55,960 bases of DNA from Planctomycetota bacterium. GTDB taxonomy: Bacteria > Planctomycetota > MHYJ01 > JACQXL01 > JACQZI01. The notes below the pieces were generated by a model that ran no database searches, had not been told where the DNA came from, and was given only the letters and a program-made list of their open reading frames with translations. Below, one piece after another: positions 9,989-27,595 of the stretch. Position 1 is the stretch's first letter. Each line of letters begins with the position of its first letter. The stretch lies in the NCBI GenBank assembly GCA_016207825.1, contig JACQZI010000006.1, positions 1 to 55,960 of the forward strand, in the 5' to 3' direction. Position numbers and translations under genes: made by a program.

Positions 9989-10753
9989 TTAACATCCGCC
10001 ATCAGCCATGAAGATTTTGGTCAAAACGACCAGGTCCAGGTATTCCAGATTAAACGGCTTCATGATATATTCGAATGCACCCAGATTTAAAGCCTGGTCT
10101 ATCGTACCGGATTCACGGTCGCCTGTAATTATCATGACGTTGATTCTTCTATCCAATGCCTTGATTTTTTTTAAGGCCAGCAAGCCGTCCATGCCGGGCA
10201 TGTTTACATCCAGTAAAACGAGGTCCGGCCTGTCCGCTTTGATTTTATCAAGCGCTTCTTCCCCACAGGATGCCGTATCCACGGTATAACCGCGCTGCAT
10301 TAAGAATTTACCCAAGAAACTGCATATTTCCGGATCATCGTCAACTATCATAATTTTAGCCGTTTGGTTCTTGGGCTTGGCAGAAGCTGGTTTCTTTTTA
10401 AGCTTCAAATCTTCGATGGTATTCATGAATGATTCTATGCTCAAACCCTTTTGCAGGAAACGGGTCACCCCAAAAACTCTGGCATCCCTTTCCAGTTCTT
10501 CCGTGCCAAAACCGGTCAACATGATTATATCAACTGCTGGATCAAACCGCCTGATTTCCCGCAATAAATCCAAGCCGCTTAGCCCGGGCATACGATGGTC
10601 CAGGATTATCAAATCCGGCCGATCATTGCGCAGCTTAAGAAGCGCATCCTCTCCCGAAACACTGGTATCCACCGCATAACCATAGCGGTTAAGAAGCCTG
10701 TATAATAAATCCCTTATCGCCACATCATCATCCACGACTAGGATTTTTTCCAT
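9989..10753 (-). CDS. tandem receiver-domain response regulator (REC-REC)
   Basis: This 254-residue cytoplasmic protein is made of two CheY-like receivers and no output domain. Receiver 1 (about 3-120) has acidic pocket D8-D10, phosphoacceptor in LIILDHRMPG (about D53) and Lys in RFLQKGL. Receiver 2 (about 132-252) has VDDDPE, LVLLDVNMPGMDG and FEYIMKPFN. Both look phosphorylatable. Such proteins work as phosphorelay nodes or protein-interaction switches. It is the first gene of a four-gene operon (REC-REC, helical protein, zinc ribbon/HEAT, STAS-like) behind a sigma-54-type promoter. No histidine kinase is encoded anywhere in the cluster. Confidence 0.9.
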   Translation of the reverse strand: MEKILVVDDDVAIRDLLYRLLNRYGYAVDTSVSGEDALLKLRNDRPDLIILDHRMPGLSGLDLLREIRRFDPAVDIIMLTGFGTEELERDARVFGVTRFLQKGLSIESFMNTIEDLKLKKKPASAKPKNQTAKIMIVDDDPEICSFLGKFLMQRGYTVDTASCGEEALDKIKADRPDLVLLDVNMPGMDGLLALKKIKALDRRINVMIITGDRESGTIDQALNLGAFEYIMKPFNLEYLDLVVLTKIFMADGGC

Positions 10754-10839: not shown

Positions 10840-10938
10840 TCGGACGCCTAGAGCATATAAATTAAAATATTTATTTATTGGTCTCTCCGCGTCTTTCAAG
10901 CGGTATATTTATCGTTTTCATATTCCGCTTAAAAGAGA

Positions 10939-10954
10939 AGCAACATTTATGCCA
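10939..10954 (-). promoter_or_regulatory. sigma-54-type promoter (variant) for the REC-REC operon
   Basis: Minus strand TGGCATAAATGTTGCT has GG and GC exactly 10 nt apart, as the -24/-12 elements require. It differs from the usual TGGCACGN4TTGCW at the CG positions (TA here), a feature shared with two other promoters of this cluster. Predicted start is near 10928, leaving a leader of about 175 nt. Confidence 0.75.
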
Positions 10955-11023: not shown

Positions 11024-12427
11024 TTAAATTTGTTCTTCTATGGCGGAGTGGGTCGCTATTTTATCACGGAGTTCTTCCAGCGGGATATTAATCATTTCCG
11101 CAGCTTTCTCCAGATTGCCGTTAGCCTGGTTTATGACATACTGGATATATTTCTGCTGCATTTCGGAAAGGGGTTTAATTTTATGTGGAGCTTTATTGCT
11201 AAATAGATCCAGTTCTTCCCACAAAATCTGGTAATCATCCAGTGATGGGATGGCCAGCGCCACATCAGCCGGAGTAATGGTTTCATTTTCACTCAGGATA
11301 TGCACCCTTTCCACGAAATTCTTCAATTCCCTGATATTACCCGGCCAATCGTATTCGAGGAGCATTTGGATGGCGCTTGGGGAAAATGGTTTCCTCTTTT
11401 GACCGTTGTTTTTTTCATATAAACCTGAAAAATGACCGACCAGTAGCATGATATCATCCGGCCTCATGCGCAGGGGATAAACCTGGATATTCATTACCGC
11501 CAGCCGGTAATAAAAATCGCTTCTGAACCGGCCGGACTTAACCTCATCGGCAATATTGCGGTTCGTAGCGGAAACAATCCGGACATCCACCCAGCGTTCC
11601 TGGTTATCACCCAGTCGCCTGAAAGTGCCGGTTTCTATCACCCGCAATAATTTAACCTGAAGGGTAGCAGAAAGTTCAGTTACTTCATCCAGAAAAAGGG
11701 TGCCCTTGTTAGCTTCTTCCAAAAGCCCGAGTTTGGAATTGACCGAATCGGTAAACGCACCTTTGGTATGCCCGAAAAGCTCGTTTTCCAGGAGATTTTC
11801 CGGAATGGCACCGCAGTTAATCGGGATAAAAGGCGCCTGCGAACGCTTGCTGTTTTGATGGACCATGCGGGCCACCAGTTCTTTCCCTACGCCGGTTTCA
11901 CCGGAAATCAAGACAGAAGCATTGGTCGGCGCCACCTTGCTAACCACATTCTGGATGCCTTTAATCGCAGTGCTTTGGCCGATAAACTCCGTGGCAGACG
12001 GCTTGATAACGGACCATTTGCCATCGTTTTTTTCTATTTCTTTCTTGTAATTACGGTTGGCTTTCCGGTAAGCACTGCCGATAACCGAAATGAATTCCTC
12101 CGAATTTGATGATTTTACCAGAAAATTATGCGCTCCCAGCGACATGGCACGGCAGGCTATTTTAAAATTGCCTTTGCGGGCGAGAATTATAACTTCTACA
12201 AAAGGCAGGTAGATTTTAAGGCTTTTAAGGGTTTCTAGGGATTCTCCTTCATCCTGATTGGCGCTTACCAGAACGACCAGAATCTTCTTTTCGGTCAAAT
12301 CCTTGAGCCCGGCTGACAGGTTCGGGGTAGAAAACACCTGGTAATTCGCCTCTGCCAAATTAATGGTCAGGCTGTCAACAAACGGCTCATCATCATCAAT
12401 AATCAAGACCTTGGGCTGCTCGTTCAT
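11024..12427 (-). CDS. sigma-54-dependent activator with degenerate receiver and GAFTDS loop
   Basis: This 467-residue NtrC-family protein has three parts. The receiver-like domain (about 5-120) keeps the acidic triad D11-D13 and a Lys (K105) but has no Asp at the phosphorylation site; the strand reads ILVVLVSANQ. The AAA+ domain (about 148-380) has Walker A GETGVGKE (176-183), Walker B GTLFLDE (242-248) and arginine finger region FRSDFYYRL. The C-terminal helix-turn-helix is Fis-like and weak (GNLEKAAEMINIPLEELRDKI). The sigma-54-contacting loop reads GAFTDS (223-228) instead of GAFTGA. It therefore probably works without phosphorylation. Two -24/-12 promoters and a structured leader element lie upstream. 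Confidence 0.9.
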   Translation of the reverse strand: MNEQPKVLIIDDDEPFVDSLTINLAEANYQVFSTPNLSAGLKDLTEKKILVVLVSANQDEGESLETLKSLKIYLPFVEVIILARKGNFKIACRAMSLGAHNFLVKSSNSEEFISVIGSAYRKANRNYKKEIEKNDGKWSVIKPSATEFIGQSTAIKGIQNVVSKVAPTNASVLISGETGVGKELVARMVHQNSKRSQAPFIPINCGAIPENLLENELFGHTKGAFTDSVNSKLGLLEEANKGTLFLDEVTELSATLQVKLLRVIETGTFRRLGDNQERWVDVRIVSATNRNIADEVKSGRFRSDFYYRLAVMNIQVYPLRMRPDDIMLLVGHFSGLYEKNNGQKRKPFSPSAIQMLLEYDWPGNIRELKNFVERVHILSENETITPADVALAIPSLDDYQILWEELDLFSNKAPHKIKPLSEMQQKYIQYVINQANGNLEKAAEMINIPLEELRDKIATHSAIEEQI

Positions 12428-12457
12428 ACCCCTCTTTCTATATAATATTTTTACCTA

Positions 12458-12473
12458 AGCAACACCTATACCA
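12458..12473 (-). promoter_or_regulatory. sigma-54-type promoter (variant), proximal, for the GAFTDS activator
   Basis: Minus strand TGGTATAGGTGTTGCT has the invariant GG and GC 10 nt apart and the same TATA...TGTTGCT pattern as the promoters at 10939 and 24756. Predicted start is near 12447, 20 nt before the ATG of the activator gene. Confidence 0.7.
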
Positions 12474-12606
12474 TACAAGAATTATAAAAAGGGAGAAGCT
12501 AAATATCCAGGTGCAAAATCAAGCGAGTCAAATCAAAGGATTCCAGCTTCCCCCCGAGCATTTCTACCGGAAACAAGTGGGGAGGGTTAGACTAACATCC
12601 CTAAGT

Positions 12607-12703
12607 CAACCTTGCGGGTAAAACTTATGGGCAAAGCCCAAGGACGTTGTTTCCCTCCCCTTATTACTTCCCTCACAACAAAGGAGCTAATGTCCGCAAG
12701 GCT
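12607..12703 (-). repeat. structured leader element, copy 1
   Basis: A 97-bp segment is bounded by inverted ends AGCCTTGCGG (minus strand start) and CCGCAAGGTTG, and contains GCTCCTTT, AAGGGGAGGGA and GTCCTTGG blocks. All of these recur in the same order and spacing at 14409-14500. It begins about 17 nt after the predicted start of the distal sigma-54 promoter, so it would form the 5' leader of the GAFTDS activator mRNA. It could be a regulatory RNA or a small mobile palindrome; no known riboswitch class was recognised. Confidence 0.6.
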
Positions 12704-12730
12704 ATTTTTCTCAGGTCATCATTCAATATA

Positions 12731-12746
12731 AGCAATTTTTGTGCCA
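12731..12746 (-). promoter_or_regulatory. sigma-54 promoter, distal, near-consensus
   Basis: Minus strand TGGCACAAAAATTGCT matches TGGCACGN4TTGCW in all but one position, with the correct 10-nt GG/GC spacing. Predicted start is near 12720, immediately before leader element copy 1. It would produce a leader of about 290 nt for the GAFTDS activator gene. Confidence 0.7.
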
Positions 12747-12960
12747 CTATGCCGGATTATTGACATAATCTTTACTTATTGCCCTAACCATATGCCTTTA
12801 TTGGAGTTAAAGACATAGAATTAAATTAAGGGCTGGATTCTTGTTGTGCGTAGCAACAAATTTTCCCATTAATGACACAGTATCGTGTGCCATTTTCCCA
12901 TATTTGGGACAGTTATGCTGGCAATGATTCCCAAAACGCGGATTTTCTGGAGGGATGCGG

Positions 12961-14316
12961 TTATAGGAATGTATTAATCCGGTATTCCTTCAACTTCCTG
13001 TATAATTTTGAGCGGCTAAATTTTAAAGCCAGGGCGGCTTTTATTTTATTGCCTTTGTGATCTTCAAGGGCTTTAACGATAATGTTTCGCTCAAAATCTT
13101 TTATTGATTCCTTAGGGCATAGTTTATCAGGGGCAAGAAAATTGAGTTGGTTGGAAAGATGCATCGGCAGGTCAATGGGCAAAATGCAATCACCTTCAGA
13201 AATCATCAAGGCGCGCTCGACGACATTACATAATTCCCTGATGTTTCCCGGCCAGTTATATTGCATAAGGATTTTCATGGCGTCAGGTGTAATTTTTTTA
13301 TTTGCTTTGACCCCTTTCCTGGCAATAAAATATCTTGCCAGCAAGGGAATATCCTCTTTTCGTTCCCTCAAAGAAGGCAGGTGGATATTGACCATATTCA
13401 AACGGTTATATAAATCATTGCGGAAATTGCCTTTTTCAACTTCCTCCTGTAAAGTTCTATTGGTTGCCGCAATGATTCTAACGTTGACCTTGATTTGTTC
13501 GCAGCCGCCGACGCGGCGGAATTCCCGGGTTTCTATCGCACGCAGGAGTTTTGCCTGTGTAGCAAGGTTCATTTCCGTAATTTCATCAATGAACAAAGTC
13601 CCTTTATCCGCCAACTCAAAAAGCCCCGGTTTGGCAGAAAGGGCATTCGTAAAAGCGCCTTTTTCATGTCCGAACAGCTCGCTTTCGAAAAGCGTTTCCG
13701 GGATGGATGTGCAATCAACAATGACAAACGAATTTTTATCCAGATGATTAATACTGTGGATCGTTTTTGCCACTAATTCCTTGCCTGTCCCAGTTTCCCC
13801 GCTGACTAAAATCGTGGGGGCAATTTTCGCCACCTTATTAATCAGGAAAAAGGCCTCTTTAATCTTTTGGCTTTTCCCAATCATCCTGTAATAGCTGTTT
13901 TTCGCCGGTAATGTTTCCCCCACATTATTATTTTCACCGCGGCTAGCCATTCTTTTATATGATGCATCAATAGTCGCTTCGAGTTCGCCTATATTGACGG
14001 GTTTGGGAAGGTAATCACAACAACCCAATTTCATAGCTTCAACGGCGGTCGGCACGTTACCTTCGCCGGTAATAATGATGCATTCGGGTGATACTTTTTG
14101 CGACTTGAGTATCCTCACCAATTCAATCCCGTTCATCTCCGGCATGTTTATATCAATCAGGCCAATATCGAACTCTTTTGTTTTCATCCTGCCAAGAACC
14201 GCTTTGGCGTTGGCAAAAACCTCCATGCTATATTTATCTTTGGATAATGCCCTGGCGAGAAGACTGCGTATTCCTTCATCGTCGTCCACTACGAAAAGGT
14301 TTATTTTTTTGCTCAT
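12961..14316 (-). CDS. NtrC-type response regulator with GAFTNA loop
   Basis: This 451-residue sigma-54 activator has an intact receiver (D11-D13, phosphoacceptor D55 in GLIDINMPEMNG, K105 in LPKPVN). Its AAA+ domain has Walker A GETGTGKE (173-180), Walker B GTLFIDE (239-245) and the NLYNRLN-type region, and a C-terminal Fis-type helix-turn-helix (GNKIKAALALKFSRSKLYRKLKEY). The loop that contacts sigma-54 reads GAFTNA (220-225) instead of GAFTGA. The ATG follows GAAAGGAG. The gene is monocistronic, behind a sigma-70 promoter and leader element copy 2, so it is a good candidate for the master activator of this cluster. Its cognate kinase is not in the window. Confidence 0.93.
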   Translation of the reverse strand: MSKKINLFVVDDDEGIRSLLARALSKDKYSMEVFANAKAVLGRMKTKEFDIGLIDINMPEMNGIELVRILKSQKVSPECIIITGEGNVPTAVEAMKLGCCDYLPKPVNIGELEATIDASYKRMASRGENNNVGETLPAKNSYYRMIGKSQKIKEAFFLINKVAKIAPTILVSGETGTGKELVAKTIHSINHLDKNSFVIVDCTSIPETLFESELFGHEKGAFTNALSAKPGLFELADKGTLFIDEITEMNLATQAKLLRAIETREFRRVGGCEQIKVNVRIIAATNRTLQEEVEKGNFRNDLYNRLNMVNIHLPSLRERKEDIPLLARYFIARKGVKANKKITPDAMKILMQYNWPGNIRELCNVVERALMISEGDCILPIDLPMHLSNQLNFLAPDKLCPKESIKDFERNIIVKALEDHKGNKIKAALALKFSRSKLYRKLKEYRINTFL

Positions 14317-14408
14317 CAGACTCCTTTCGCAATAGTCGCATCAAAGATGGTTGATTGTTCCAATCCTTACGCTAAAAAACGGGAAGGACTAGGCAAAAAT
14401 CCTCGAGC

Positions 14409-14500
14409 CAACCTTGCGGATAAAAACCAAGGACTTTTCTCCCTCCCCTTGTCGCGTTGTTGCGCAATAAAGGAGCCGAAAACATTTCCCCGCAAGGTTG
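14409..14500 (-). repeat. structured leader element, copy 2
   Basis: A 92-bp segment has perfect 11-bp inverted ends CAACCTTGCGG/CCGCAAGGTTG and the internal blocks GGCTCCTTTATTG, AAGGGGAGGGA and GTCCTTGG shared with 12607-12703. It lies in the 5' leader of the GAFTNA regulator, between its sigma-70 promoter and start codon. Both copies have the same orientation relative to the downstream activator gene. Confidence 0.6.
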
Positions 14501-14609
14501 ATAAATAGTTATTTAAGAACAAGAACATTTCTCATCAATCCAATTCAATGCTGCTGTTTAATCCTTGTTCAATCCACGTTAATTCCAGAGATAGAGCGAC
14601 TTTATTCAT

Positions 14610-14807: not shown

Positions 14808-15917
14808 TTACGGTTTTATGGTATTCAATTCGTTGCGATAAGCGCAGATAGTCCGGCGGGCGAGGGTGATATTATATTTTCCCCTGATTATTTCCCTTAT
14901 TTTTTCATCGGTCAATTTATTGCCCGAATCACCATTGAATTGCGATAGTATTTTTTTAATGAACAGTTTCCGGTTGGTCAGGAAAAACTTAAGGTATTTT
15001 TCATCACCCCACGGTGTTTCGATATATTTATGATTGATCGCACGGTTAACGGTGCTGCGGTGCACCTTCAAATATTTTGCCAGCATCTGCTGGGTAAGCG
15101 GTTTCAAGGCGTTTTCGTCCCTCGTCCGGAAATACTCAGTTTGATCGTTTACGATTTTCTTGACCACCTGGTAAAGAATGGTTTGCCTCGTGTTAATCAA
15201 CTCTATTTGCTTGAGAAGTTTTTCTATTTCCCTAAAATCAGTCGAGGAAAATTTATTCTGCGATTTAAGCTGGAACAATCTTTTGTAATTCACGTTATAA
15301 CGGCCGCGTGCATAGTGCGTGGAAAGATACCCTATTTTAAATGCCGTCTGGCCGGCCTGGGGGGCATCGTCATGTTCGATTGCCGCGATTTTCACTCCTG
15401 GTGCAGCCGCCGGTACGGGCGCGGAAGCAGCCATCGGGTGCGCCAGGTCCAGAAGATAAAGCTCGTCCATTAGTTCCCGAATGGCTTTGACCTGCGATAA
15501 AGGAATATTGCAAGCTTCGGCAATATCCTGCTTGCTCAAATTTTCATCGGGCGTAACGAAATAACGTTTAAAATTATCCAACCCGATCTTTTTGATTTCA
15601 GGAATAAGTTCTTTTTTCTTCTCCAGGAGCGGTGATATATCCGCCGCACCGCGGGACACGGTAATTTCTTCGTTCAACTGGCAATACCGGTCTGCCAGGT
15701 CGGTCTGTGGAAAGCGCTGGTAACTGATGATTTTTTCCCTGGGATTATCAGGAACGAATAGTTTCTTGAAAAACGGGTGAAGCTCGGTTTCCATGATTAA
15801 TTTGCGGAAATCTTTTTCGGGAAGCTCCATGAAATTGGAAAGTTTTACCCTGCCCCATAAGCGCGTGCCTACCTGGGTTTTAAGGTTCGTTCCGGGGCGT
15901 AAAGATAGTTCGGCCAT
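14808..15917 (-). CDS. diverged RNA polymerase sigma-54 (RpoN) homologue
   Basis: This 369-residue protein matches RpoN along its length but is shorter (family usually 430-500) and diverged. The core-binding part ends in INTRQTILYQVVKKIVNDQ (about 241-259), the helix-turn-helix is PLTQQMLAKYLKVHRSTVNR followed by HKYIETPWG (about 273-304), and the RpoN box reads ARRTICAYRN (353-362) against canonical ARRTVAKYRE. N-terminal Region I, which contacts activators, is recognisable only by spacing (about 10-53: TQVGTRL..KLSNFMELPEKDF, ending ETELHPFF) and has lost the Gln-rich LxxTPQLQQAI sequence. It is the last gene of the operon starting at 24707. I infer a dedicated second sigma-54 for this cluster, though a sole fast-evolving RpoN is not excluded. 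Confidence 0.88.
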   Translation of the reverse strand: MAELSLRPGTNLKTQVGTRLWGRVKLSNFMELPEKDFRKLIMETELHPFFKKLFVPDNPREKIISYQRFPQTDLADRYCQLNEEITVSRGAADISPLLEKKKELIPEIKKIGLDNFKRYFVTPDENLSKQDIAEACNIPLSQVKAIRELMDELYLLDLAHPMAASAPVPAAAPGVKIAAIEHDDAPQAGQTAFKIGYLSTHYARGRYNVNYKRLFQLKSQNKFSSTDFREIEKLLKQIELINTRQTILYQVVKKIVNDQTEYFRTRDENALKPLTQQMLAKYLKVHRSTVNRAINHKYIETPWGDEKYLKFFLTNRKLFIKKILSQFNGDSGNKLTDEKIREIIRGKYNITLARRTICAYRNELNTIKP

Positions 15918-15929: not shown

Positions 15930-16922
15930 CTAATTCGCAAAGTCTAAAACATACTGTTTAAAATTACCCGGAGAAACCAGGATAAACCAGCAGTTAATCG
16001 GCGAGTTTATAATACTGAATTTCATTTCAATAGTAAAGAGATATTCGTCTTTGGTTTTTCGGGCCGGGGCTAATTTTTCGGTGATTGCTTTAATCAAGGC
16101 ATTACGATGCTCAAAGGCTAATTCGGGTACTTCGAGCTTGGCCGAAAGTTTCAGGCGTTGCGAAATTTCTTGAAAACATGTTTTTATAAAAATCGTCCCG
16201 GCTGATTTTAAGTAAACCTGACCCAAGTCATCAAAAACTCTGGTGCTGCCGAACGGTATTTTTTTTATCGAATCAATCAAGAGCAAACTATCTTTCCATG
16301 AGGTTAAGAATAGCATATTGCCGTTGATGGCGCCGGAAAATTGGCTGTTCAGGCAAACCGAAGATAATCCGGGCTCTTCTAACGGACGGGCAATATGTTC
16401 TAAAGAAAGGATATTGACCTGTTGCAGAGATGCTTCCATGCTTTTTTGCATGATCCCAGATAAAACACGTGAAAAAGTTAAAACATACAATTTGGCAATG
16501 CCACCCAGGATTTCCAAGCGTTCCGTCATTAAATGGAATGCCGTATGTGTATTGCCTTCCACCGCAATCCGCAGGCTTTTCTTAAGTTCGCCTGTATTGA
16601 GCGGCTTGAAAATAAAACCTTCAACCATCTCCTCAGATGAAATTAAACTTTCGCTAAAGTCCTGTTGACTGGAAGAATCACTAATAATAACCACTTTTAG
16701 AAATGGTTTAAGCTTCCTCAAGCGGCGGAAAACATCATTGGCATTTATGGTCGTCAGAGCTAAATCGATGAACACTAAATCAACCGGATTAGATTTAAAC
16801 AACTCCAGAGCTTTATTACCATCATCTATGCTAATCGTACTATAACCGCCTTCGGCATGGATAAATTCGCCGATTGTTTCGCGCAGTTGCTCATCTTCTG
16901 ATACAATTAGAATTTTAATCAT
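15930..16922 (-). CDS. response regulator with CheC/CheX-like C-terminal domain
   Basis: This 330-residue protein has an N-terminal receiver (about 3-120; acidic E9-D10-E11, phosphoacceptor D53 in LVFIDLAL, Lys in GFIFKPLN). Its C-terminal domain (about 150-325) has the strand-helix layout of CheC/CheX-type proteins (FSGAINGNMLFLTSW, a long helix around the DDLGQVYLKSAGT stretch, ending INCWFILVSP). The Glu/Asn catalytic pairs of CheC phosphatases are not evident, so the domain may only bind partners. Its ATG is 1 nt after the stop codon of the TPR gene, indicating translational coupling; the sigma-54 homologue follows after 12 nt. The receiver call is firm; the CheC-like call is tentative. 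Confidence 0.7.
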   Translation of the reverse strand: MIKILIVSEDEQLRETIGEFIHAEGGYSTISIDDGNKALELFKSNPVDLVFIDLALTTINANDVFRRLRKLKPFLKVVIISDSSSQQDFSESLISSEEMVEGFIFKPLNTGELKKSLRIAVEGNTHTAFHLMTERLEILGGIAKLYVLTFSRVLSGIMQKSMEASLQQVNILSLEHIARPLEEPGLSSVCLNSQFSGAINGNMLFLTSWKDSLLLIDSIKKIPFGSTRVFDDLGQVYLKSAGTIFIKTCFQEISQRLKLSAKLEVPELAFEHRNALIKAITEKLAPARKTKDEYLFTIEMKFSIINSPINCWFILVSPGNFKQYVLDFAN

Positions 16923-16923: not shown

Positions 16924-18303
16924 TTATTTCTCTTTACTTATGCTGTTTGTTTCTAATCTGCCTTTGGCCTGGCTGGCATAGGGTCCTTCCGGTTCGATGT
17001 TAATTGCCTTTTGCCAGGAACTCTGAGCCAGTTCGCTGTTTTTTAATGACATATACACATCTCCCAGATATAAAAACACCTCTGGATTGGTGTTATCCAA
17101 CTCCATTGCTTTTTCCAGGAGCGGCTGGGCGGAATACGGCAACCCTTTTTTCAGATAGGCTAATCCGGCAAGAAAATTAATCACCGCCTCATCCGGATTA
17201 GCTGTTAATGCTTTTTGGGTATACACCAGAGCTAAATCGTACTCTTTATTTTCAAGATAACCTTTAATCAACTTCTCGGCTGACTCAGTATCGCGGTTAT
17301 CCGCATCAAAGGCTTTCTTGTAGGCATCAATCGATGACGGCAAATAAACTTTTTCTTCGCTGTAAAACTCCCCTAACAAGAAAGATGCCAGGTTATCTTT
17401 CGGGTCGATTTCAAGTAACTTATCGCATATTTCTATGGCTTTGTCATATGAGCCCTGCATACGGTAGATGATGCTTAAAAGATAATAATGCATCATATTA
17501 TCTGAACGCAGGGTAAAATTCTTTTTGCCATGTGACGTAATGACTTCACGGGACAAATTTAAAAGTATCCTGTCGGCTGCTCGGCGATGATGGCTTAACG
17601 TATCGACACTCTGTTTTTCCAGTAGCTGTTTGTAAGTATCAACCGCCTGTTCAAATGAATTTTTTGAATAATACGCTATGCCTAACCCTATCAGGACCCA
17701 TTCGCTTAATGGGGTAATAGTTGAAATTTCTTTCCAACACTTAATTGCTTCATCATAGTTTTTACAGGCTAAATGGCAAGTCCCAAGCGAATATAAATCG
17801 CGCTGGTTTTTCCCGTTTATCTGAATATTCTTCTGGAAAGCATCAATCGCATCCTGATAATTATTCTGAAGAATGTAAACCGATCCCAAAGCGCTATATA
17901 CGTATTCATACGCTGGATCAAGGGTAATAACCTTTTTGTACAGGGCGACTGCATTGTCATATTCCTCTTTCTCACGGTAACATGTCGCCATATAAAAATA
18001 AGGTTCGGGCAATGCCGGGTTGTATTCGGCATATTTTTTAAAACAGTCCAGCGCATGGTAAATAGAACCCTTGTTAAATAATCCCAGCCCGAGATAAAAA
18101 TATAGTTTCTCCATTTCATCGGGCGGAGGATTAAGCGCTAAAGCCTTTTCTAAATATTTGAGGCTCTGGTCAAAATCACCTTTATTTAAATACGCCCTCC
18201 CGAGCGCAAAATGAGCCTGGAAACTGGACGGATTCAACTTTAACGCCTTCTGACCCAGCTCGATAGCCTGCTCCAAATATTCGTTCTTAAAAACCGATGG
18301 CAT
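16924..18303 (-). CDS. TPR-repeat protein (459 aa)
   Basis: This cytoplasmic protein is built almost wholly of about eleven to twelve tetratricopeptide repeats with the usual pattern (ALGRAYLNKGDFDQSLKYLE, YLGLGLFNKGSIYHALDCF and similar). There is no signal peptide or membrane helix. TPR arrays bind other proteins, so this is probably a scaffold for the coiled-coil and receiver proteins of the same operon. It lies 15 nt after the larger TPR gene and 1 nt before the receiver/CheC-like gene. Specific partners cannot be read from the sequence. Confidence 0.88.
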   Translation of the reverse strand: MPSVFKNEYLEQAIELGQKALKLNPSSFQAHFALGRAYLNKGDFDQSLKYLEKALALNPPPDEMEKLYFYLGLGLFNKGSIYHALDCFKKYAEYNPALPEPYFYMATCYREKEEYDNAVALYKKVITLDPAYEYVYSALGSVYILQNNYQDAIDAFQKNIQINGKNQRDLYSLGTCHLACKNYDEAIKCWKEISTITPLSEWVLIGLGIAYYSKNSFEQAVDTYKQLLEKQSVDTLSHHRRAADRILLNLSREVITSHGKKNFTLRSDNMMHYYLLSIIYRMQGSYDKAIEICDKLLEIDPKDNLASFLLGEFYSEEKVYLPSSIDAYKKAFDADNRDTESAEKLIKGYLENKEYDLALVYTQKALTANPDEAVINFLAGLAYLKKGLPYSAQPLLEKAMELDNTNPEVFLYLGDVYMSLKNSELAQSSWQKAINIEPEGPYASQAKGRLETNSISKEK

Positions 18304-18318: not shown

Positions 18319-20898
18319 CTATTTTTCTGATTTCAACAAGTAAATCATGGACAAACGCGCATGCGCCTCGGCATTTTCCGGTTCAAGCGAAATAACCCTC
18401 TGGTATGAATCAATGGCTTCATCGTATTTCCCTTGCTCATAATAAATTCCGGCCAACCAATTATGAAGACGACTATCCATTGGAGTTTTCTCGAAAAGCT
18501 TGTTGATATAACTAACCGTTTCCTGGACAGTATAAGCAGTTTTATAGCATTCGGCCAATCCCTCGTAAACTGAAGCGTCTACCGCTTTAGCATTAATTAA
18601 CCATTCGTAACTTTTAACGGCTTCATGATATTTTGCAAGATGGCGGTAACTCTCGGCTAAATACTTATGCACTTTAACAGAAAAAGGCATCTTGTATTCT
18701 TTATCCGCCAAAGGAATGCAATACCCGATTACTTTACTATAATCTTGTTGTTGGAAATATGTTTCAGCGACAGCCAGGTAAAGATCGGGATTGCCCGCCT
18801 GCCGTTTTGTGACATCCTCATAATAATCCATAGCCGTACCGTTTTCCCCTTTCGCAGTATAAATCGCTCCCAGATTCAGGTAAGCATCCATATCGTTCGG
18901 ATCAAGCTTGACGAGTTTTTTGTAATAATAAATTGCCTCATCATACAACCCGTTCTGGTTATAAATAACACCCAGTTTCCTGCATACCTCTTTATCATTA
19001 GGATTAATCTCTATTTCCTTTTTATATTTTGTGATGGTTTGATGGACTTCTTCTTCAAAATCACCCTGAGCATCGACTTTTTGATTGTATTGCGGATTAA
19101 GGTCGCTCGCTTTCTGGAAGCAGTTGGAAGATTCTTTAGTTAACCCTTTTTGTTTATACGCCTTCCCTAATATATAAAATGATTTGGCGTCTTGCGGATT
19201 TAATGCCACGGCTTTTTTGAGATGCGCAACAGCTTCTTCCAAGAGGTTTTGCATCGAATAAATGGAGCCTAAATCGCCGTAGGCTTCGGCATTATCCGGG
19301 TTCAACTCTATTATTTTCTCATATACCTTGATAGCTTTATCATAAGCGGATTGGTTTTTATACGCTTTCCCAAGGATAAAATAGGCCTGTATATCCTGCG
19401 GGGCAATGTTTAATCTTTTAAGGCATACGCTAATGGCTTCTTCATAATTACCTTGTGAAAGATAAACCTGGGCAAGCGCGATGGATGTTTGCTTGGAAAC
19501 AGAGCTTATCCGGTATGCTCTGGTATATGCCTCCATAGATTCGCTGTATAATCCTTTTGCCAGATACGCCGCGCCTAAAGCAAAATACGAACGGCTGTCA
19601 TTTGGATTAAACAACAGTGTTTTTTTGTAAATCGCAATAGCTTCCTCCGGCAGGCCTAATTCCATATAAGCATTGCCTAAAATCGGGTAGCTTTCAATAT
19701 TATGCGGAGTAATCTTTACGCCATCGATATTTGCCTCAATCGCTTTTTTAAACTCTTTAGCCACTTCAAGATCTGAACCTTTTTGAAGATATAACTGGGC
19801 TGATTTAAGATAATCCTGCATACCCAGCTTGGGCTTACTATTGAGGAAATATTGGTATTGGTTTAAGGCTTTTTCCAGTTCCCCCTTATGCTCAAACGCA
19901 CTTGACAAATAATAGTAAGCCTGGTAATTTTCAGGGGCTGATTTTATCAGCCTTTCCAGTATTTTTACCGCATCATCATAATTATCCAGTGAAAGATATA
20001 TTTTAGCCATAGTTAAAAGATGATTAGGGTTATCTGGAATTTGGGCGATTTTTTGTTCGCAAACCGACAAAAGCTGCCTGGTTTGGGCATTACGCTGGTA
20101 AGCTATCCCCAAATGATGCATGCTCAAAATATCGTCACTAATCAATTGCAGCCTTTTTTCATATGCACTGACTGCCTCGTGGTATGCGCCGCGGACTAAA
20201 CAAATCGCACCGATGACGGCATATGCCAAAGCAGCATGAGGGCTAATTTGCTTTTCCGGCATATCCGGGTGTTCATCCTTGGATACAGCGGTTCCAGTAG
20301 ATTCCGCATAAACAACCGCCTGCTTGCAGGTGCTATAAGCTTCGTCGTTCATTCCAAGCACAAGATAAACTAATCCAAGGTTAGCTGAAAGTTCCGCCGC
20401 AACTGAATGGTCCGGTTTCAATAGAATGGCTTTCATATACCATGAAGCGGCTTCTTCCAACAATCCCTTTTCATCACAAGCCAGAGCCAGATTGATACAT
20501 GTATCCAAGTCATTGGGATTAAGCTGATTAGCCTTTTGCAGGGTAAAAAGCGCCTCGTCTAAATTTCCATTTTCAAAATATAGCCTTCCTAATTCAGCAT
20601 AAACCCGGACGGATTGTCCGGTAGAAGTTCTAAACGCTAAAGCATTTTTGAAACTCGATAACGCTTTATTAATCAACCCTAGGTTTTTGTATGATATACC
20701 GGAATAATAATAAACTTCCGCATCCTTTAAGCCTAATTCAAGCGCTTTATTAAGGCAAACTAAAGCTTTTTCATAATCACTTTTTTCCGCGTAAGCAATC
20801 CCCAGATCCCTATGCGTTTCTTTATGATCAGGATTATGCTCCAGCACCTTCTGATAAGTGGCGATTGCTTTTTCCTGTAGATTTTTCATATTTGTCAT
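18319..20898 (-). CDS. large TPR-repeat protein (859 aa)
   Basis: This soluble 859-residue protein contains about twenty or more tetratricopeptide repeats running from residue 8 to the C-terminus. Most have the 34-residue spacing and Pro at the repeat end (NPNDLDTCINLALACDEKGL, NPQDAKSFYILGKAYKQKGL). A short non-TPR linker lies near residue 600. No catalytic domain, signal or membrane segment is seen. It presumably forms a long superhelical scaffold. Two nearby Met codons (residues 1 and 4) could be the start. It is tightly packed with the smaller TPR gene downstream and a coiled-coil gene upstream. Confidence 0.9.
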   Translation of the reverse strand: MTNMKNLQEKAIATYQKVLEHNPDHKETHRDLGIAYAEKSDYEKALVCLNKALELGLKDAEVYYYSGISYKNLGLINKALSSFKNALAFRTSTGQSVRVYAELGRLYFENGNLDEALFTLQKANQLNPNDLDTCINLALACDEKGLLEEAASWYMKAILLKPDHSVAAELSANLGLVYLVLGMNDEAYSTCKQAVVYAESTGTAVSKDEHPDMPEKQISPHAALAYAVIGAICLVRGAYHEAVSAYEKRLQLISDDILSMHHLGIAYQRNAQTRQLLSVCEQKIAQIPDNPNHLLTMAKIYLSLDNYDDAVKILERLIKSAPENYQAYYYLSSAFEHKGELEKALNQYQYFLNSKPKLGMQDYLKSAQLYLQKGSDLEVAKEFKKAIEANIDGVKITPHNIESYPILGNAYMELGLPEEAIAIYKKTLLFNPNDSRSYFALGAAYLAKGLYSESMEAYTRAYRISSVSKQTSIALAQVYLSQGNYEEAISVCLKRLNIAPQDIQAYFILGKAYKNQSAYDKAIKVYEKIIELNPDNAEAYGDLGSIYSMQNLLEEAVAHLKKAVALNPQDAKSFYILGKAYKQKGLTKESSNCFQKASDLNPQYNQKVDAQGDFEEEVHQTITKYKKEIEINPNDKEVCRKLGVIYNQNGLYDEAIYYYKKLVKLDPNDMDAYLNLGAIYTAKGENGTAMDYYEDVTKRQAGNPDLYLAVAETYFQQQDYSKVIGYCIPLADKEYKMPFSVKVHKYLAESYRHLAKYHEAVKSYEWLINAKAVDASVYEGLAECYKTAYTVQETVSYINKLFEKTPMDSRLHNWLAGIYYEQGKYDEAIDSYQRVISLEPENAEAHARLSMIYLLKSEK

Positions 20899-20913: not shown

Positions 20914-21513
20914 TTATTCTATCTTCTTTTTGTGCCAGGAATCACAGGCGTTATTTAACATCTTTTCGATGTCCGCTATTTCTTTGTTCATTATTTCCTT
21001 ATATTGGGTTTCTGTTTCCTGGAGCTTTAAAGCATGGTCTCTTTTTAAATCCTGAATATCGGTTTCTAATTTCTTTACGGTTTGTTCCAGTGCCGCTTTT
21101 TCAAGATTCCATGCCTTTTCTTTAGTTCTTATTTTTTCCTCAAGCCGCTGGATATCGTCTTTATAATAAAACTGGGTTTGGGTCTCCCATTTGTTACGCT
21201 CATTTTCCCATTCGCTTTGCTTTTTGTTCCATTGTTCTTCTTTTTTTTGGTATATTTCATACTGGGTTTTCCATTTATTTATTTCCTGATGAAGCAGTTT
21301 TTTTTCAGATTCCCATGCGGAATCCCTTTTAGCCAATTCCGATTGCAATGCCTTAACTTCAGCCTCGCGCAATAAGCGCACTTCGTCTAGGTTTTGCCTT
21401 TCTTCGTCCAGCTTTTTGGCCAACCCGTTCAAGCGGCTGCGGACATCGTCCGGTATCAACTCTCTTTTAGGCATATCAGTATCCGAAAAATTATCCATTT
21501 TATCGTTCTCCAT
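20914..21513 (-). CDS. coiled-coil protein (199 aa)
   Basis: This cytoplasmic protein is nearly entirely heptad-type coiled coil from about residue 25 to 195, rich in Glu, Lys and Gln, with repeated Trp in the pattern W-E-x-E-K (DSAWESEKKLL, EEQWNKKQSEWENERNKWE, EKAWNLEKAAL). No membrane helix or known domain is visible. It is encoded between the 878-residue anchored coiled coil and the TPR proteins with gaps of 27 and 15 nt, so it likely belongs to the same assembly. Family unknown. Confidence 0.75.
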   Translation of the reverse strand: MENDKMDNFSDTDMPKRELIPDDVRSRLNGLAKKLDEERQNLDEVRLLREAEVKALQSELAKRDSAWESEKKLLHQEINKWKTQYEIYQKKEEQWNKKQSEWENERNKWETQTQFYYKDDIQRLEEKIRTKEKAWNLEKAALEQTVKKLETDIQDLKRDHALKLQETETQYKEIMNKEIADIEKMLNNACDSWHKKKIE

Positions 21514-21540: not shown

Positions 21541-24177
21541 TTACGAAAACGCATGCCAGAGGAATAAACTCAACATGCCCAGCATGAATACCACCAGCGA
21601 AACCATAAAAATGGTTTGCCATGCCTGAAGTGAAATCAAAGGTTTAATCCGGGTCAATTCCCTTTTTTTTTGCAAATAATCATCCGAAATCCCCTCTAAA
21701 GCTAGCTGCTGCTGCAAAATTTTCTCATCCAGCAATGCCAACGGCGACCGCATCTGATTATATTTTTCGGTTTCCGACATTATTTTAAATTGCCAGTCAG
21801 TTATTTTTCTCATCAACTCGTCACGAAGAGCTTTCTTTTCCTTAATCGCAGACCCTAAATCAGCCAGCATGCTGGTAAGTTTTTTCTGTTCGTCTTTTAT
21901 TCTCAGTGTTTCTTTTTTTATCTGCGATTCTTTTTCCTGGAGTTTTTGCAAGTTATCCGCCTTTTCCGTTATCTCCGCTTCTAATTTACTAAGTGCGCTT
22001 TCGTTCTTCCCCGCTTCTTCGGATAATTTTTTCGTTTCATCCTTAAGTCGGTTCAATTCCTCTTGTGATTGGGTAAATCCTTTCTTTTCAAAATTACTGA
22101 CCGCATCCTGGATTTTCTGTTTTTCATCTGTTTTGGTTTTGATTTGTGCATCAAGGGTTACTAGCTTTCCCACTAGGTCTTTTTTTATACCCTCCTGTAT
22201 TGCTTTCTCCTCCTCTAATGCCTTAAGTTTTACTTCTTGAGGCGACAATTCCTTGCTTTCAATTTGCCTAACCATATCCGCCAGCTTCTGCGCCTCAAAG
22301 CTCTTATCGCGAACCTGGGCTTCCAGTAATAGTATTTCGGAAACAAGCTTATTATATGATACCGCCTGTTGAGACTTTCTTTCCTCCATACAGGTTATCG
22401 AATCGTGGACTCTATCCAGCTGTTCTTTTTTATCCCGTATCTCCGATTCCAACTTTATGATTTTCCGGCTTAATTCTGCCTGTTGGGCGTTTTTCTGGTA
22501 AATATTAGATTCCACCTGGGCCGAAAGTTCACTCAGTTCTTTTTGCGTAGCCGAAAGTTCTTGTAGTTTTTTAGCCAAAACACGCTCTTTACCTTCGAGT
22601 TCTTCTAACTTCGCTTTTTCCGTAGGCAAATCTCTGGTGATTTTATCTATCGCCGCACATTTTTCATTGGTTTCATTTTTCAGATGCTCGATTACCGTCA
22701 CCAGCTTTTTTATTTCCTCTTCTTTTTGAGGTAATTCTATTTCCCTCAGACGCTTTATTTCTTCGGTTATCCGTTCTTTTTCGGTTAACTTACCGGCTAT
22801 CTGGTTGTTCACAGACTCCAGCTGCACACCTAACCCTAGGCGAATCTTTTCCTTTTCCGCAATCATTGTTTCTGCTTCCTTTACCTTGGCCTCATGCTGA
22901 AGGAGATCTTCCTTTTCAAGGCGCCTGATTTCTTCGGAAAGTTTTTTAATCTCGATGTTTTTAGCGTAAATTTGGTGTTCTAATATAGAATTCTCCCTTA
23001 CCAATTCCTTATACCTGCTTATCTGTTGGATATTTTGCTCTTCAATTGTGCTGATGTGCGCCGATAAATCCTTTATTTTATTATTCAGGACGCCTGTCTC
23101 CTGCTCGGTTTCTTCCAGCAAACGGCTCTGGCGTGAAAGAGTAGATTGCATCTTTTCGATTTCACCATTTATTTTGGTGAAAGCGTTTTCTTGCCTGGGA
23201 ATTTCCTCTTCCTCAAGCCGCATGATCCAAGTCAGTAGTTTCTGCTTTTCGGATAATTTCGCGCTTAATTGGATGTTTATTAAGTTAAGTTTACCGGGAA
23301 ATTGCTGGTTTTCTGTTTTCTGTGCAAGAACCTTGCTTTCCAGTTCTTTTAACATGGATTCTCTCTGCGGAATTTCTACATCTTCCAAGTGTTTAACCGT
23401 ATCCAGCAGTTCTTTTTTCTGCACTCCCTTGGTTTTCAGCTGCCCCTCCATCAAAGTTGACTGCTTAACCAGGCTTTGAAGATCTGATTCATGTCGGGAA
23501 ATAGCCTCCTCAAGGTTTTGTATGCGCTTGGGTAATTTTTTCGCCTTTTTATCCAATGCGAATATCTCCTCTTCGGTATTTACTAAAAGCCCACGATTTT
23601 GGTCTATTTTTATCGTGGTTTCCTCGATATCCTTTTTCAGCTTGGCCAGTTTCTCTTCGCATTGCGGCTGTTCGCTCTTTTCCAAGTAATTAACCGCTTC
23701 TAATAGCTTTTGCTTTTCATTAAGTTTGGTTTCAATATCCACATCCAATAAATGCCTATCCTGAACAAGCTTCCTGAGAGCTTCTTCCTTTTCGTTAATT
23801 TCACTTTCTAGCCCATGAAGTTGTTTTTGCTTTTTCCGCAGACGTTGCTCCTCCTGTGCCAGGCTCTCCTGTTCCGCCTTTATTCCTGATTGCTTTTCAC
23901 CGTAAAGCTTTTCTTCCCAATGCAAAGCGTCCAGCAATTCTTCCATCCGACGGTTTAAGGAAGATGCCTCCTGTTCCATGATTTTGTCCACGCTTTTCAG
24001 GTAGCCAGCTTCGGCCTGGGAAATCTGCCAGTATAAGCTTTTATTTTCTTCCTGCAGGATGCTTAACTGCGCCTGATACGTATCCCGTTCCTGGACTATT
24101 TCCAACAGCCAATCATTAAGCTTGGATTTTATTCTTTGCTGTTGTGATACTATTTCAATCTGGTTATTCGCAATCAT
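21541..24177 (-). CDS. long coiled-coil protein with C-terminal membrane anchor
   Basis: This 878-residue protein is continuous predicted coiled coil from about 10 to 845, ending in a single hydrophobic helix (about 855-875) and a three-residue tail. It is therefore tail-anchored with the rod in the cytoplasm, or less likely spans the periplasm. A motif like LExxExPQxExxLxxL recurs at about 171, 270, 327, 426, 483, 646 and 702, giving a 156-residue super-repeat (see finding). No head domain is present. It shares an operon with receiver, TPR and sigma-54-like genes, suggesting a structural rod whose production is controlled by this cluster. Similarity to SMC- or golgin-like sequences would be compositional only. 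Confidence 0.82.
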   Translation of the reverse strand: MIANNQIEIVSQQQRIKSKLNDWLLEIVQERDTYQAQLSILQEENKSLYWQISQAEAGYLKSVDKIMEQEASSLNRRMEELLDALHWEEKLYGEKQSGIKAEQESLAQEEQRLRKKQKQLHGLESEINEKEEALRKLVQDRHLLDVDIETKLNEKQKLLEAVNYLEKSEQPQCEEKLAKLKKDIEETTIKIDQNRGLLVNTEEEIFALDKKAKKLPKRIQNLEEAISRHESDLQSLVKQSTLMEGQLKTKGVQKKELLDTVKHLEDVEIPQRESMLKELESKVLAQKTENQQFPGKLNLINIQLSAKLSEKQKLLTWIMRLEEEEIPRQENAFTKINGEIEKMQSTLSRQSRLLEETEQETGVLNNKIKDLSAHISTIEEQNIQQISRYKELVRENSILEHQIYAKNIEIKKLSEEIRRLEKEDLLQHEAKVKEAETMIAEKEKIRLGLGVQLESVNNQIAGKLTEKERITEEIKRLREIELPQKEEEIKKLVTVIEHLKNETNEKCAAIDKITRDLPTEKAKLEELEGKERVLAKKLQELSATQKELSELSAQVESNIYQKNAQQAELSRKIIKLESEIRDKKEQLDRVHDSITCMEERKSQQAVSYNKLVSEILLLEAQVRDKSFEAQKLADMVRQIESKELSPQEVKLKALEEEKAIQEGIKKDLVGKLVTLDAQIKTKTDEKQKIQDAVSNFEKKGFTQSQEELNRLKDETKKLSEEAGKNESALSKLEAEITEKADNLQKLQEKESQIKKETLRIKDEQKKLTSMLADLGSAIKEKKALRDELMRKITDWQFKIMSETEKYNQMRSPLALLDEKILQQQLALEGISDDYLQKKRELTRIKPLISLQAWQTIFMVSLVVFMLGMLSLFLWHAFS

Positions 24178-24194: not shown

Positions 24195-24707
24195 TTAGTC
24201 CTCAAAAAAATCATGTTTCAGGCTAGTTTCAAGAAACCGGGCAAGCCTCTTGTTTTCAAGCGGGCGCCGGCGGTTAAGCAGCTGTTTTTCACGGTCCTGC
24301 CTATTTAATGGTTTTTCGTCTTCAGCCGATTTCTCATTATTTTTTTCTATCACCTCTTCGATAGCAAAAATCAGTTCGTCCAAATCCAATGGACGGTATA
24401 AGATGAAAGCAAAATCATCGAAAGAGATATTGCGGGCGTTTAAAAAATGCTTGAGTTTATCTTTAGAGAGACTGGCTAAACCGATGAGTGACAAAGAAAA
24501 ACGTAATTCCTGGAATGCTTGTAAAAATAACGGTAGGGTTACATTATTTTCAATATCTATAAACGCCAAGGAAAATTCGGCCGTGCGCAACAACTCTTTG
24601 CATTCACTTATATCATGAGCGATTATGACATTATAACCCCATTTCTTCAATGGAGAAAAAAGGTCGATATAATCCTTGTTACCGGTTATCAATAAAACTC
24701 GCACCAT
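24195..24707 (-). CDS. receiver-like (pseudo-REC) protein
   Basis: This 170-residue protein has a CheY-like fold (about 1-118): RVLLITGNKDYIDLF, phosphoacceptor-like Asp in SLAFIDIEN, and FAFILYRPLDLDELI where the conserved Lys would be Tyr-Arg. The N-terminal acidic pair that binds Mg is missing, so phosphorylation is doubtful. A charged linker and basic tail (RQDREKQLLNRRRPLENKRLARFL) follow. It is the first gene of the operon running to the sigma-54 homologue, starting about 38 nt after the predicted start of the sigma-54-type promoter. It may be a constitutive docking module. Confidence 0.72.
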   Translation of the reverse strand: MVRVLLITGNKDYIDLFSPLKKWGYNVIIAHDISECKELLRTAEFSLAFIDIENNVTLPLFLQAFQELRFSLSLIGLASLSKDKLKHFLNARNISFDDFAFILYRPLDLDELIFAIEEVIEKNNEKSAEDEKPLNRQDREKQLLNRRRPLENKRLARFLETSLKHDFFED

Positions 24708-24755
24708 ATTTTCTTATTGACGCATAAAACTATAAATTATGCACTATTGTTTCGA

Positions 24756-24771
24756 AGCAACAAATATGCCA
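24756..24771 (-). promoter_or_regulatory. sigma-54-type promoter (variant) of the TPR/coiled-coil/rpoN-like operon
   Basis: Minus strand TGGCATATTTGTTGCT has GG and GC separated by 10 nt and shares TATA-N2-TGTTGCT spacing with the promoters at 10939 and 12458. Predicted start is near 24745. It would make the sigma-54 homologue at the operon end autoregulatory if that protein uses this promoter class. Confidence 0.75.
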
Positions 24772-25111: not shown

Positions 25112-27505
25112 TTACCATACTTTAAAGCTTTTGGCACTATTCTTAAAAATCTTCTCGTATTGTCCGTAAACGCTTTTTTTGCAATAAAAAACCAGTCTCA
25201 GCTTGATACCGGCAACATCTATAACACGCATATAATATTCATATTTTAGTCCTTCTATATCGTAAGTATACACCAAAGTTGCATCCGTTTTTCCTTCCGG
25301 CTTTAAAATAATTTCCTTGGTGCCGTCTTTTACTCCTTGCTCTACCAGGCCTGACAAATATTCATCACAATCCTCTTCGCTGTCTTCCTGAGCAATAAGC
25401 CCGTAAACCCCTTCTTCCTCATTTGAAAACTTGGCAGTCATGATACCGTCGATTTTCTCTAATATATCCATCTTCCAATCGGAAGGCAGTGAAATTTCAA
25501 ATCCCCAGCGGCTGCTACGCCAAATCTTGGTGTCACCAGCATCTTCTTGTACCCCTGAAGAAATCGATAATATTAAAGACTTTGCGCATTCAGCAAATAT
25601 TTTCTCATATTTATCGTATTGATCAGTCTTGCAATTAAAAAATACCCGTATTTTTTCTTCGCCGGAACTTATAGCTCTGACATAATTTTGATAAGAAGCT
25701 CCTTTTACTTCCCCGATAAAAACGGCTGTGGCCTCTGATTTACCTTTTGGCTCCGTAATCATATCGATCTTATATTCTTTCTTAAGAGCATCCAGATATT
25801 CTTCCAAATATTCATCTGCACGACCGTCACTTTTTTCCCGGTAAACACTTCCGTAAACCGCATCTGAATCACCGGAAATTTTAGCTATCCGGCCATTTTC
25901 ATCCTCGTCAAAGATATCTATCTCCCAATCGGAAGGCAGTGAAATTTCAAATCCCCAGCGGCTACTGCGCCAAACTTTGGTATCCTCTTCTATATCGTCA
26001 GAAGAACCATTTACCGCCTTCAGCGTCCCGGCGTATTTTTTTAACGCGTCCTCGTATTCGTCGAAAGATGCCTCGTCACACCAAATAACCGTCCAAAGTT
26101 TCGTCTCACCGGCCCCAATCGCATATATGTAGTAATAATATTTAACATCTTCTGACTTTTGGGTAAAAATCCCACTGGCTTTCTTTTCGTTTCCTGACAC
26201 CTCAACTTCTTTAACCGTTGATTCCGAATCTTTTGCGCTGTCAATTATTGACTTAATAAACTCCTTGCAACCGCCTGACCAATCCTGTATTTTGATATAA
26301 CCACCTATCTTTTCGTTTTTCCCGGTAAATTTAGCGATATTAACTCCGTCTTTTTTATCATAAATGTCCATCTTCCAATCGGAAGGCAGAGTCAATTCAA
26401 AACTCCATTTTTCACTGGTCCAAGTTTTATCCTTGGTTTTTACATTTTTGTTGACTGCCGCGGATATGCCTTCCAGCGTTTCGGCGTATCGGGCAAAAAG
26501 ATCTTCGTATTTATTATAAAGTTTTGCTGAACAATAAAATACAATCCTTAGCTTAGAGCCATCAACATCTACCACACGAACATAGTATTGATAACTAGTC
26601 CCTTCTATATCGCATATATAAACCATGTTTGCGGCTAATTTACCTTTTGGTTTTACGACGACTTCTAGCCCACCATCTTCTTTGAGTGATTCAAGAACAC
26701 CCTTAAGATATTCATCCGCCCAGCTTTCAGAATAATCCTTGGCGATAAGTCCGGAAATACCGTTAGGCTTATCCGAGAATCTGGCAACAAGTATTCCTTC
26801 AGATTTATCTAATATATCCACATTCCAATCAGAAGGAAAAGTCACCTTAAAACCCCATTTATCACTTCGCCACACCTTATCTTCCTCAGACAAAAGTGAC
26901 GGCTCATCCGGTATTTTTTTAGGGCGACTTTCATTTAACTTCACCAAAGCTTTGGTGGCTTTGTCACGAACCGATGAATCGCTATCCCCCAATAAAGCCG
27001 TAATATCCTTTATGTATTCAACGGCACCAAGTTTGCCTAAAGCTTCAGCCGCAGTCCCTCTTAATCCGGCATCTCTATGAGCTAAAAATCCGGCGATATT
27101 CTGAGAATATTCCATTGCGCCTAAATTACCCAATGCTATCGTGGCGCCTGTTTTCACTAGGACATTCGTATCATCCAAAAGCCCGGCAATATCTTCGGTG
27201 TATTGTTTGGCTCCAAGTTCACCCAACTGAACTGCGGTAATGCTTCTTATATTAGCACTGGAATCGCTCAAAAGCATGACAAGCTCTTTGCTAATTTCTA
27301 TTTTATCGCTGATGCTTAACTGATGGCTGACCTGCTTGATTTTTTCAAATACCCCTATTTTTTTTAATTCATCTTTAGCGCCCCGTATCTCTTTTTTAAG
27401 GCTGTCAATATCAACCTTGGACTGGCTATGCAAGGGGAGGTTTAACCCGAAGGGTAAATGTAAAAGAATCAAGCAGAGTAAAAATCTTATAAGAAGTTGT
27501 TTCAT
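25112..27505 (-). CDS. secreted HEAT-repeat protein with four 150-residue repeats
   Basis: This 797-residue protein has a signal peptide (about 1-27), a short helical linker, four HEAT-like repeats (about 68-190, each DSSANIRSITAVQLGELGA-like), then four copies of one domain starting exactly at residues 211, 361, 511 and 661. Each copy opens with WRSxxWGFexxLPSDWxmDI and closes with YEKIFaxxAKSL. The domain resembles PsbP/DUF1795-like folds that start with a short W-F-PxxW strand, but I do not assign a family. It should be periplasmic or surface-exposed. The gene is monocistronic on the minus strand. Copies 3 and 4 share a long near-identical stretch of DNA, suggesting recent duplication or gene conversion. 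Confidence 0.85.
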   Translation of the reverse strand: MKQLLIRFLLCLILLHLPFGLNLPLHSQSKVDIDSLKKEIRGAKDELKKIGVFEKIKQVSHQLSISDKIEISKELVMLLSDSSANIRSITAVQLGELGAKQYTEDIAGLLDDTNVLVKTGATIALGNLGAMEYSQNIAGFLAHRDAGLRGTAAEALGKLGAVEYIKDITALLGDSDSSVRDKATKALVKLNESRPKKIPDEPSLLSEEDKVWRSDKWGFKVTFPSDWNVDILDKSEGILVARFSDKPNGISGLIAKDYSESWADEYLKGVLESLKEDGGLEVVVKPKGKLAANMVYICDIEGTSYQYYVRVVDVDGSKLRIVFYCSAKLYNKYEDLFARYAETLEGISAAVNKNVKTKDKTWTSEKWSFELTLPSDWKMDIYDKKDGVNIAKFTGKNEKIGGYIKIQDWSGGCKEFIKSIIDSAKDSESTVKEVEVSGNEKKASGIFTQKSEDVKYYYYIYAIGAGETKLWTVIWCDEASFDEYEDALKKYAGTLKAVNGSSDDIEEDTKVWRSSRWGFEISLPSDWEIDIFDEDENGRIAKISGDSDAVYGSVYREKSDGRADEYLEEYLDALKKEYKIDMITEPKGKSEATAVFIGEVKGASYQNYVRAISSGEEKIRVFFNCKTDQYDKYEKIFAECAKSLILSISSGVQEDAGDTKIWRSSRWGFEISLPSDWKMDILEKIDGIMTAKFSNEEEGVYGLIAQEDSEEDCDEYLSGLVEQGVKDGTKEIILKPEGKTDATLVYTYDIEGLKYEYYMRVIDVAGIKLRLVFYCKKSVYGQYEKIFKNSAKSFKVW

Positions 27506-27595
27506 AATGTTCTCCTATCTAATATTTCATAATTTATGTAAAATACCTTAATTCTTGCGGAAAAGCAACAAATAACTGGCTTCTGGCCGATCGTG

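Follow-up and report, generated by a model that had tools for sequence, protein, structure and literature searches.

Sigma-54 and its specialized forms

Region I and the core-binding domain (CBD) of sigma-54 (RpoN) are treated as essential parts of the protein. Genomes that encode sigma-54 mostly carry a single copy, with about 5% having more (PMC12316311). Cereibacter (Rhodobacter) sphaeroides, with its RpoN1-4 and the activators NifA, FleQ, and AprX, offers a close parallel to the locus described here, in that extra sigma-54 proteins are likewise found with their own activator(s) and a promoter subclass. There, RpoN1 and RpoN2 each have activators of their own and discriminate between promoters at position -11 (PMC11999139), and AprX is the partner of RpoN3 (PMC11999139, PMC3162934). 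All four, however, are described as RpoN, and the promoters of RpoN1 and RpoN2 reportedly differ only at -11 (PMC3162934, PMC11999139), whereas the protein considered here, P0001, has lost recognizable domains and the promoters in question differ at about -21/-20 and -17/-16. On this comparison, P0001 may best be read as an extreme version of the specialization seen in Cereibacter.

Constructed forms of sigma-54 also bear a resemblance to P0001. In Pseudomonas, sigma-54 promoters are repressed by a peptide designed from the C terminus of RpoN (PMC5626770). Like this RpoN* roadblock, a designed 60-aa C-terminal domain, P0001 has the DNA-binding part of sigma-54 while the activator-interacting domain and proximal CBD are unrecognizable; RpoN* is an artificial peptide, whereas P0001 occurs naturally, has a length of 369 aa, and retains the distal CBD and a start resembling Region I. 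Activator-bypass forms of sigma-54, which carry Region I deletions, share with it the loss of the canonical Region I surface but were made in the laboratory from a sigma-54 that is otherwise intact.

The gene and its surroundings

P0001 is encoded in a window (the whole stretch of DNA that was analyzed, 55,960 nt) from a Planctomycetota bacterium. The ORF of 369 residues at 14808-15917 that had been proposed from the window is present on the minus strand and is confirmed as real. It closes a tight seven-gene operon running from 24707 to 14808 with intergenic gaps of 1-27 nt, and the -24/-12-type promoter expected ahead of that operon was located at 24755-24771. The genes of the operon are as follows.

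24195..24707, minus strand: VpsR/REC-like protein, 170 aa, first gene of the operon (weak PF20161 match, E 0.0012; REC-type alignment)
21541..24177, minus strand: long coiled-coil protein with a C-terminal hydrophobic segment, 878 aa (SMC-like coil match only; sequence)
20914..21513, minus strand: coiled-coil-type protein, 199 aa (sequence; no confident Pfam match)
18319..20898, minus strand: TPR protein, 859 aa (Pfam)
16924..18303, minus strand: TPR protein, 459 aa (Pfam)
15930..16922, minus strand: REC and CheC-like protein, 330 aa (PF00072; CheC_Thtogales at aa 153-320, E 3.6e-7)
14808..15917, minus strand: P0001, sigma-54-like protein, 369 aa, last gene of the operon

Two activator genes and a REC-REC gene lie downstream as separate units outside the operon.

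12961..14316, minus strand: NtrC-type activator with loop GAFTNA and a REC domain with Asp (sigma-70-like promoter at 14638-14610)
11024..12427, minus strand: NtrC-type activator with loop GAFTDS, in which the REC phospho-acceptor Asp is replaced by Ser
9989..10753, minus strand: REC-REC protein, behind the third variant promoter (see below)

The short N terminus of P0001 is not an artifact of start choice or of a frameshift, because the frame extends just four codons further upstream (373 in total) and tblastn with canonical RpoN queries found no convincing match in the other frames of the region; a hidden N terminus is thereby ruled out. The preceding gene stops 12 nt short of the P0001 start, and codon use is of the coding type. 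An AlphaFold2 model made without an alignment reached a pLDDT of 38.5 and was not relied on; IMG/VR yielded no RpoN sequences when these were sought for a structure-prediction alignment.

Conservation of the cluster was also approached through the REC-CheC protein in 99 relatives. Among the matches listed, mainly the REC part was covered, and cluster conservation is therefore unsupported by this route. Elsewhere in the window, two very long adjacent genes occupy 42003-48099 on the minus strand (1004 and 1016 aa, the first with a PilX-like N terminus), and a zinc-finger/FecR gene lies near them at 48105-48740.

Domain architecture of P0001

From its sequence, the C-terminal half of P0001 unmistakably belongs to sigma-54. 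The protein can be divided as follows.

aa 1-50: rewritten Region I (HMM and constrained global alignment)
aa 51-130: unrecognizable middle
aa 131-204: distal CBD-like part (profile alignment)
aa 205-369: extra-long helix (ELH)-HTH and RpoN box (PF04552, conserved residues)
14811..15305, minus strand: the DNA-binding domain (DBD) at the DNA level, comprising the ELH, the HTH with recognition helix VHRSTVNR, and the RpoN box ARRTICAYRN (PF04552, E 1.9e-23 for this piece)

Within the DBD, 33 of the 59 strongly conserved positions (>=85%) are kept, including the HTH Arg and the Arg-Arg-Thr and Tyr-Arg of the RpoN box. The recognition helix carries V-to-R and S-to-N changes (VHRSTVNR against canonical xHxSTVSR). 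The RpoN box reads ARRTICAYRN as the original prediction had it, with the Arg-Arg kept and a 100%-conserved Lys changed to Ala.

The remainder of the protein is far less familiar. The DBD (PF04552, E 2.6e-22) is the sole Pfam domain in P0001; neither the core-binding domain PF04963 nor the activator-interacting domain PF00309, which corresponds to Region I, was detected even at E 10, whereas the canonical RpoN of the same genome matched all three in the same run (E 1.9e-54 and 3.5e-7, respectively, for the two that P0001 lacks). A profile built from 43 canonical RpoN proteins (42 from the phylum and the genome's own copy) aligns P0001 from residue 131 through to the end, and in the best individual tblastn match the alignment extends to about residue 96. 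The core-binding/HTH region, which had been described as clear, is thus clear in its HTH, and its core-binding portion is recognizable in the distal part only. In canonical proteins, Region I is separated from the distal CBD by ~190 residues making up Region II and the proximal core-binding subdomain, and P0001 has ~80 unrecognizable residues there. Correspondingly, the spacing between the end of Region I and the ELH is 179 residues in P0001 and at least 271 in canonical copies, two shorter canonical values having been set aside as motif mis-hits.

Region I itself presents a more subtle picture. The family HMM for this region does not recognize residues 1-52, 444 of 4702 shuffled sequences scoring equally well, and the similarity becomes significant solely when the alignment is constrained end to end (mean score 19.7 vs. 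-0.5 +/- 4.6, with none of 500 shuffles matching it). As the constrained alignment beats every shuffle, we consider Region I to be retained and altered rather than lost. Its edges match the canonical patterns L..G.NLK.....RL and LP..D.R.LI, and the core PQIIQSIEIL, near-invariant in the canonical set, reads GRVKLSNFME. The proposal that Region I is largely rewritten therefore holds in the sense that the core has been replaced while the edges still align. Overall, as judged by domain and profile comparisons, the N-terminal half is altered beyond what the original prediction claimed.

P0001 thus resembles canonical RpoN in its ELH-HTH and RpoN box DBD, its DNA-contact Arg, its distal CBD, and a Region I that can be aligned in place; it differs in its length, in the replaced Region I core, in the contraction of Region II and the proximal CBD, and in its score of 89.6 bits against the TIGR02395 equivalog model, below the cut-off of 277.35. 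Because two of the three domains that define the family go unmatched, it is filed here as sigma-54-derived, its status as a sigma factor being unproven.

The contraction of ~190 residues to ~80 unrecognizable ones makes core binding by P0001 uncertain. This gives weight to a reading in which the protein is a sigma-54-derived DNA binder that occupies the -24/-12 sites of the cluster, and perhaps others, in competition with the canonical holoenzyme, as a natural roadblock providing negative feedback. Only the DBD and distal CBD are recognizable, sigma-54 promoters are repressed in vivo by the designed DBD-only peptide (PMC5626770), and the position of P0001 as last gene behind a -24/-12 promoter fits such feedback. 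A mere DNA binder, however, needs neither a Region I-like N terminus nor a distal CBD, and mere competition with canonical sigma-54 requires no separate class of promoters in the cluster. We regard this reading as somewhat doubtful, but it stays a serious rival because the proximal core-binding half is unrecognizable.

Divergence and distribution

A second, canonical rpoN had been named at the outset as the gene whose absence could count against the proposal of a specialized sigma-54. Such a gene, encoding 522 aa, is present on another contig (L035:2032-3600) of the genome (2.9 Mb searched, 97.6% complete, 42 contigs), and P0001 as the only sigma-54 of the organism is ruled out. The description of P0001 as a strongly diverged sigma-54 homologue is borne out, and it stands as a second copy beside the canonical one. 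An RpoN tree, which the original prediction had called for, makes the extent of divergence plain, the end branch of P0001 being 8.06 as against 0.88 for the canonical copy; given branches so unequal, the placement of P0001 in the tree is meaningless.

No orthologue was found in 99 relatives, in the order or class, in 392 genomes of the phylum, in two GTDB scans, or in IMG/VR. The best matches among the 392 phylum genomes were RpoN proteins of canonical length. The contig scans, based on exact peptides, reach close relatives only, and the genus is represented by one other genome, 56% complete. Plasmid and phage collections gave DBD-level matches only, starting from about residue 204 or further along, none of which covers 80% of the protein; with these matches and no relative in IMG/VR, identity as a phage- or plasmid-borne sigma-54 finds no support.

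The long branch, the lost domains, and the lack of a detected orthologue are what might be expected of a decaying rpoN duplicate without present function, with the canonical sigma-54 running the cluster. Against this, the frame is intact, the codons are coding-like, and the operon is tight, and the conserved DBD positions that are kept, including those of the HTH and the RpoN box Arg, point to selection on DNA binding. We consider decay improbable.

Promoters of the cluster

The -24/-12 sites of the cluster are listed below.

24755..24771, minus strand: variant -24/-12 promoter TGGCATATTTGTTGCTT of the P0001 operon
12457..12473, minus strand: variant -24/-12 promoter TGGTATAGGTGTTGCTT, which precedes the GAFTDS activator gene (11024-12427) by 30 nt
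10938..10954, minus strand: variant -24/-12 promoter TGGCATAAATGTTGCTT, upstream of the REC-REC gene
12730..12746, minus strand: -24/-12 site TGGCACAAAAATTGCTT with a canonical core, far upstream of the GAFTDS activator gene (11024-12427)

The GAFTDS activator gene also has a weaker GG/GC site near 12860. A genome search with TGGYAYNNNNNTTGCTT gave 21 matches, and the reversed control gave 2. Outside the cluster, the intergenic sites mostly resemble TGGCACG.TATTTGCTT and lie 17-171 nt ahead of a gene, and TGGCACGATATTTGCTT serves as an example of a canonical promoter. The three variant promoters of the cluster differ from these others in the same manner, at about -21/-20 and -17/-16. The pattern TGGNNNNNNTGTTGCTT occurs at five places in the 2.9-Mb genome (~1.3 expected), two of them inside coding genes and three in the cluster, where 0.003 would be expected (14 kb, coding strand only); each of the three cluster sites is intergenic and precedes a gene by 30-185 nt. 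The variant class TGGYAT...TGTTGCTT is found at no intergenic site of the genome outside the cluster. TG is present in three of four intergenic cluster sites and in none of 12 elsewhere (Fisher p 0.007), a pattern that was seen before it was tested and that involves three or four sites only; counting across the whole genome nevertheless provides a helpful control. The variant promoters of the cluster, that of the P0001 operon included, thus form a sequence class of their own, an observation that is new here. Autoregulation of the operon is plausible.

The cluster promoters retain TTGC, and this bears on the notion that P0001 is a constitutive, activator-independent sigma-54 whose rewritten Region I no longer blocks the entry of DNA. 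Deletion of Region I leads to activator bypass in vitro (PMC4551910), and it is the near-invariant core of this region that P0001 has exchanged. Bypass, however, is rare in vivo and tied to a non-consensus -12 element (PMC4551910), and two activator genes adjoin the operon. Constitutive activity is accordingly very unlikely.

Further sites were observed in the window. A 12-mer of the operon promoter, TATTTGTTGCTT, recurs at 27563-27574 on the minus strand, without the -24 GG, upstream of a HEAT/PsbP-like gene (25112-27505). A perfect canonical sigma-54 core, TGGCACGATTATTGCT, lies at 54222-54237 on the plus strand, ~290 nt upstream of an ORF at 54527-55873.

Activators

The two adjoining activators do have altered GAFTGA loops, GAFTDS and GAFTNA, as originally stated; both lie outside the operon. 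Position 5 of the loop also varies in five of the 23 other activators listed in the genome (four Asp, one Ser), and the loops of the cluster are therefore weak evidence for co-adaptation.

Sigma-54 activators with strong matches number 25 in the genome (on several contigs, L043-L060, and in the window at 51807-53849). Many are ~660-750 aa long and belong to one family with the near-identical motif YIELASGGTLFIDEIxNMSPSMQQ, which suggests a lineage expansion; one member (on L060) carries an internal stop codon. Upstream of both cluster activators are two leader elements, at 12600-12705 and 14370-14510 of the window (both on the minus strand), which are ~70% alike, share CCTTGCGG...CCGCAAGG and AAGGGGAGGGA motifs, and have folding z scores of about -2.5. 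They match no Rfam family, and BLAST found no further genome copy of the second.

A dyad, AATGGCACACGATACTGTGTCATT, at 12871-12894 on the minus strand, just upstream of the weak -24/-12 site, resembles an activator-binding site. This strong dyad recurs nowhere else in the window, and a shared activator-binding dyad near the cluster promoters was rejected as a candidate.

A proposed dedicated sigma-54 paralogue

The reading that we favor, with a probability of roughly 0.48, is that P0001 is a lineage-specific, fast-diverged paralogue of sigma-54 dedicated to its own cluster. In essence, P0001 would form a holoenzyme through its reduced core-binding domain and would read the variant promoter class by means of the altered helix VHRSTVNR and the Lys-to-Ala change in the RpoN box, and one or both of the neighboring activators (GAFTNA, GAFTDS) would remodel it via the rewritten Region I. 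The GAFTNA activator, made from its sigma-70-like promoter, could start the circuit, and the variant cluster promoters would then supply positive autoregulation.

We prefer the dedicated paralogue because the DBD and the DNA-contact Arg are kept, a canonical rpoN is present, Region I can be aligned, the promoter class is private, the codons are of the coding type, and RpoN1 and RpoN2 of Cereibacter provide a precedent. It is weakened by the unmatched Pfam AID and CBD, the unrecognizable proximal CBD, a Region I HMM score at the level of shuffled sequence, the small number of post hoc promoter sites, the lack of a detected orthologue, and loop changes that are not special to the cluster. The orthogonal, cluster-serving, and possibly autoregulated sigma-54 of the original prediction is therefore upheld as regards a diverged second copy with its own promoter class; the argument from altered GAFTGA loops is weak, and sigma function is predicted. 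A stronger version, in which a reduced sigma-54 whose Region I has been rewritten co-evolved within one genome with dedicated activators and a private -24/-12 promoter class as a fully insulated module, is possible but tentative.

P0001 is real and unusual, a lineage-specific paralogue of sigma-54 that is extreme and possibly reduced and has a promoter class of its own. Together with its cluster and the variant promoters, it suggests a nearly self-contained circuit drawn from a system that normally operates genome-wide. A natural protein that keeps the DBD, rewrites Region I, and loses most of the proximal CBD, accompanied by matching promoters, would test which parts of sigma-54 are required, and it would serve as a naturally occurring sigma-54 part, either orthogonal or repressing. 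If the insulated module is true, it would show that a large part of the core-binding domain is open to rebuilding, as is an activator interface regarded as constrained.
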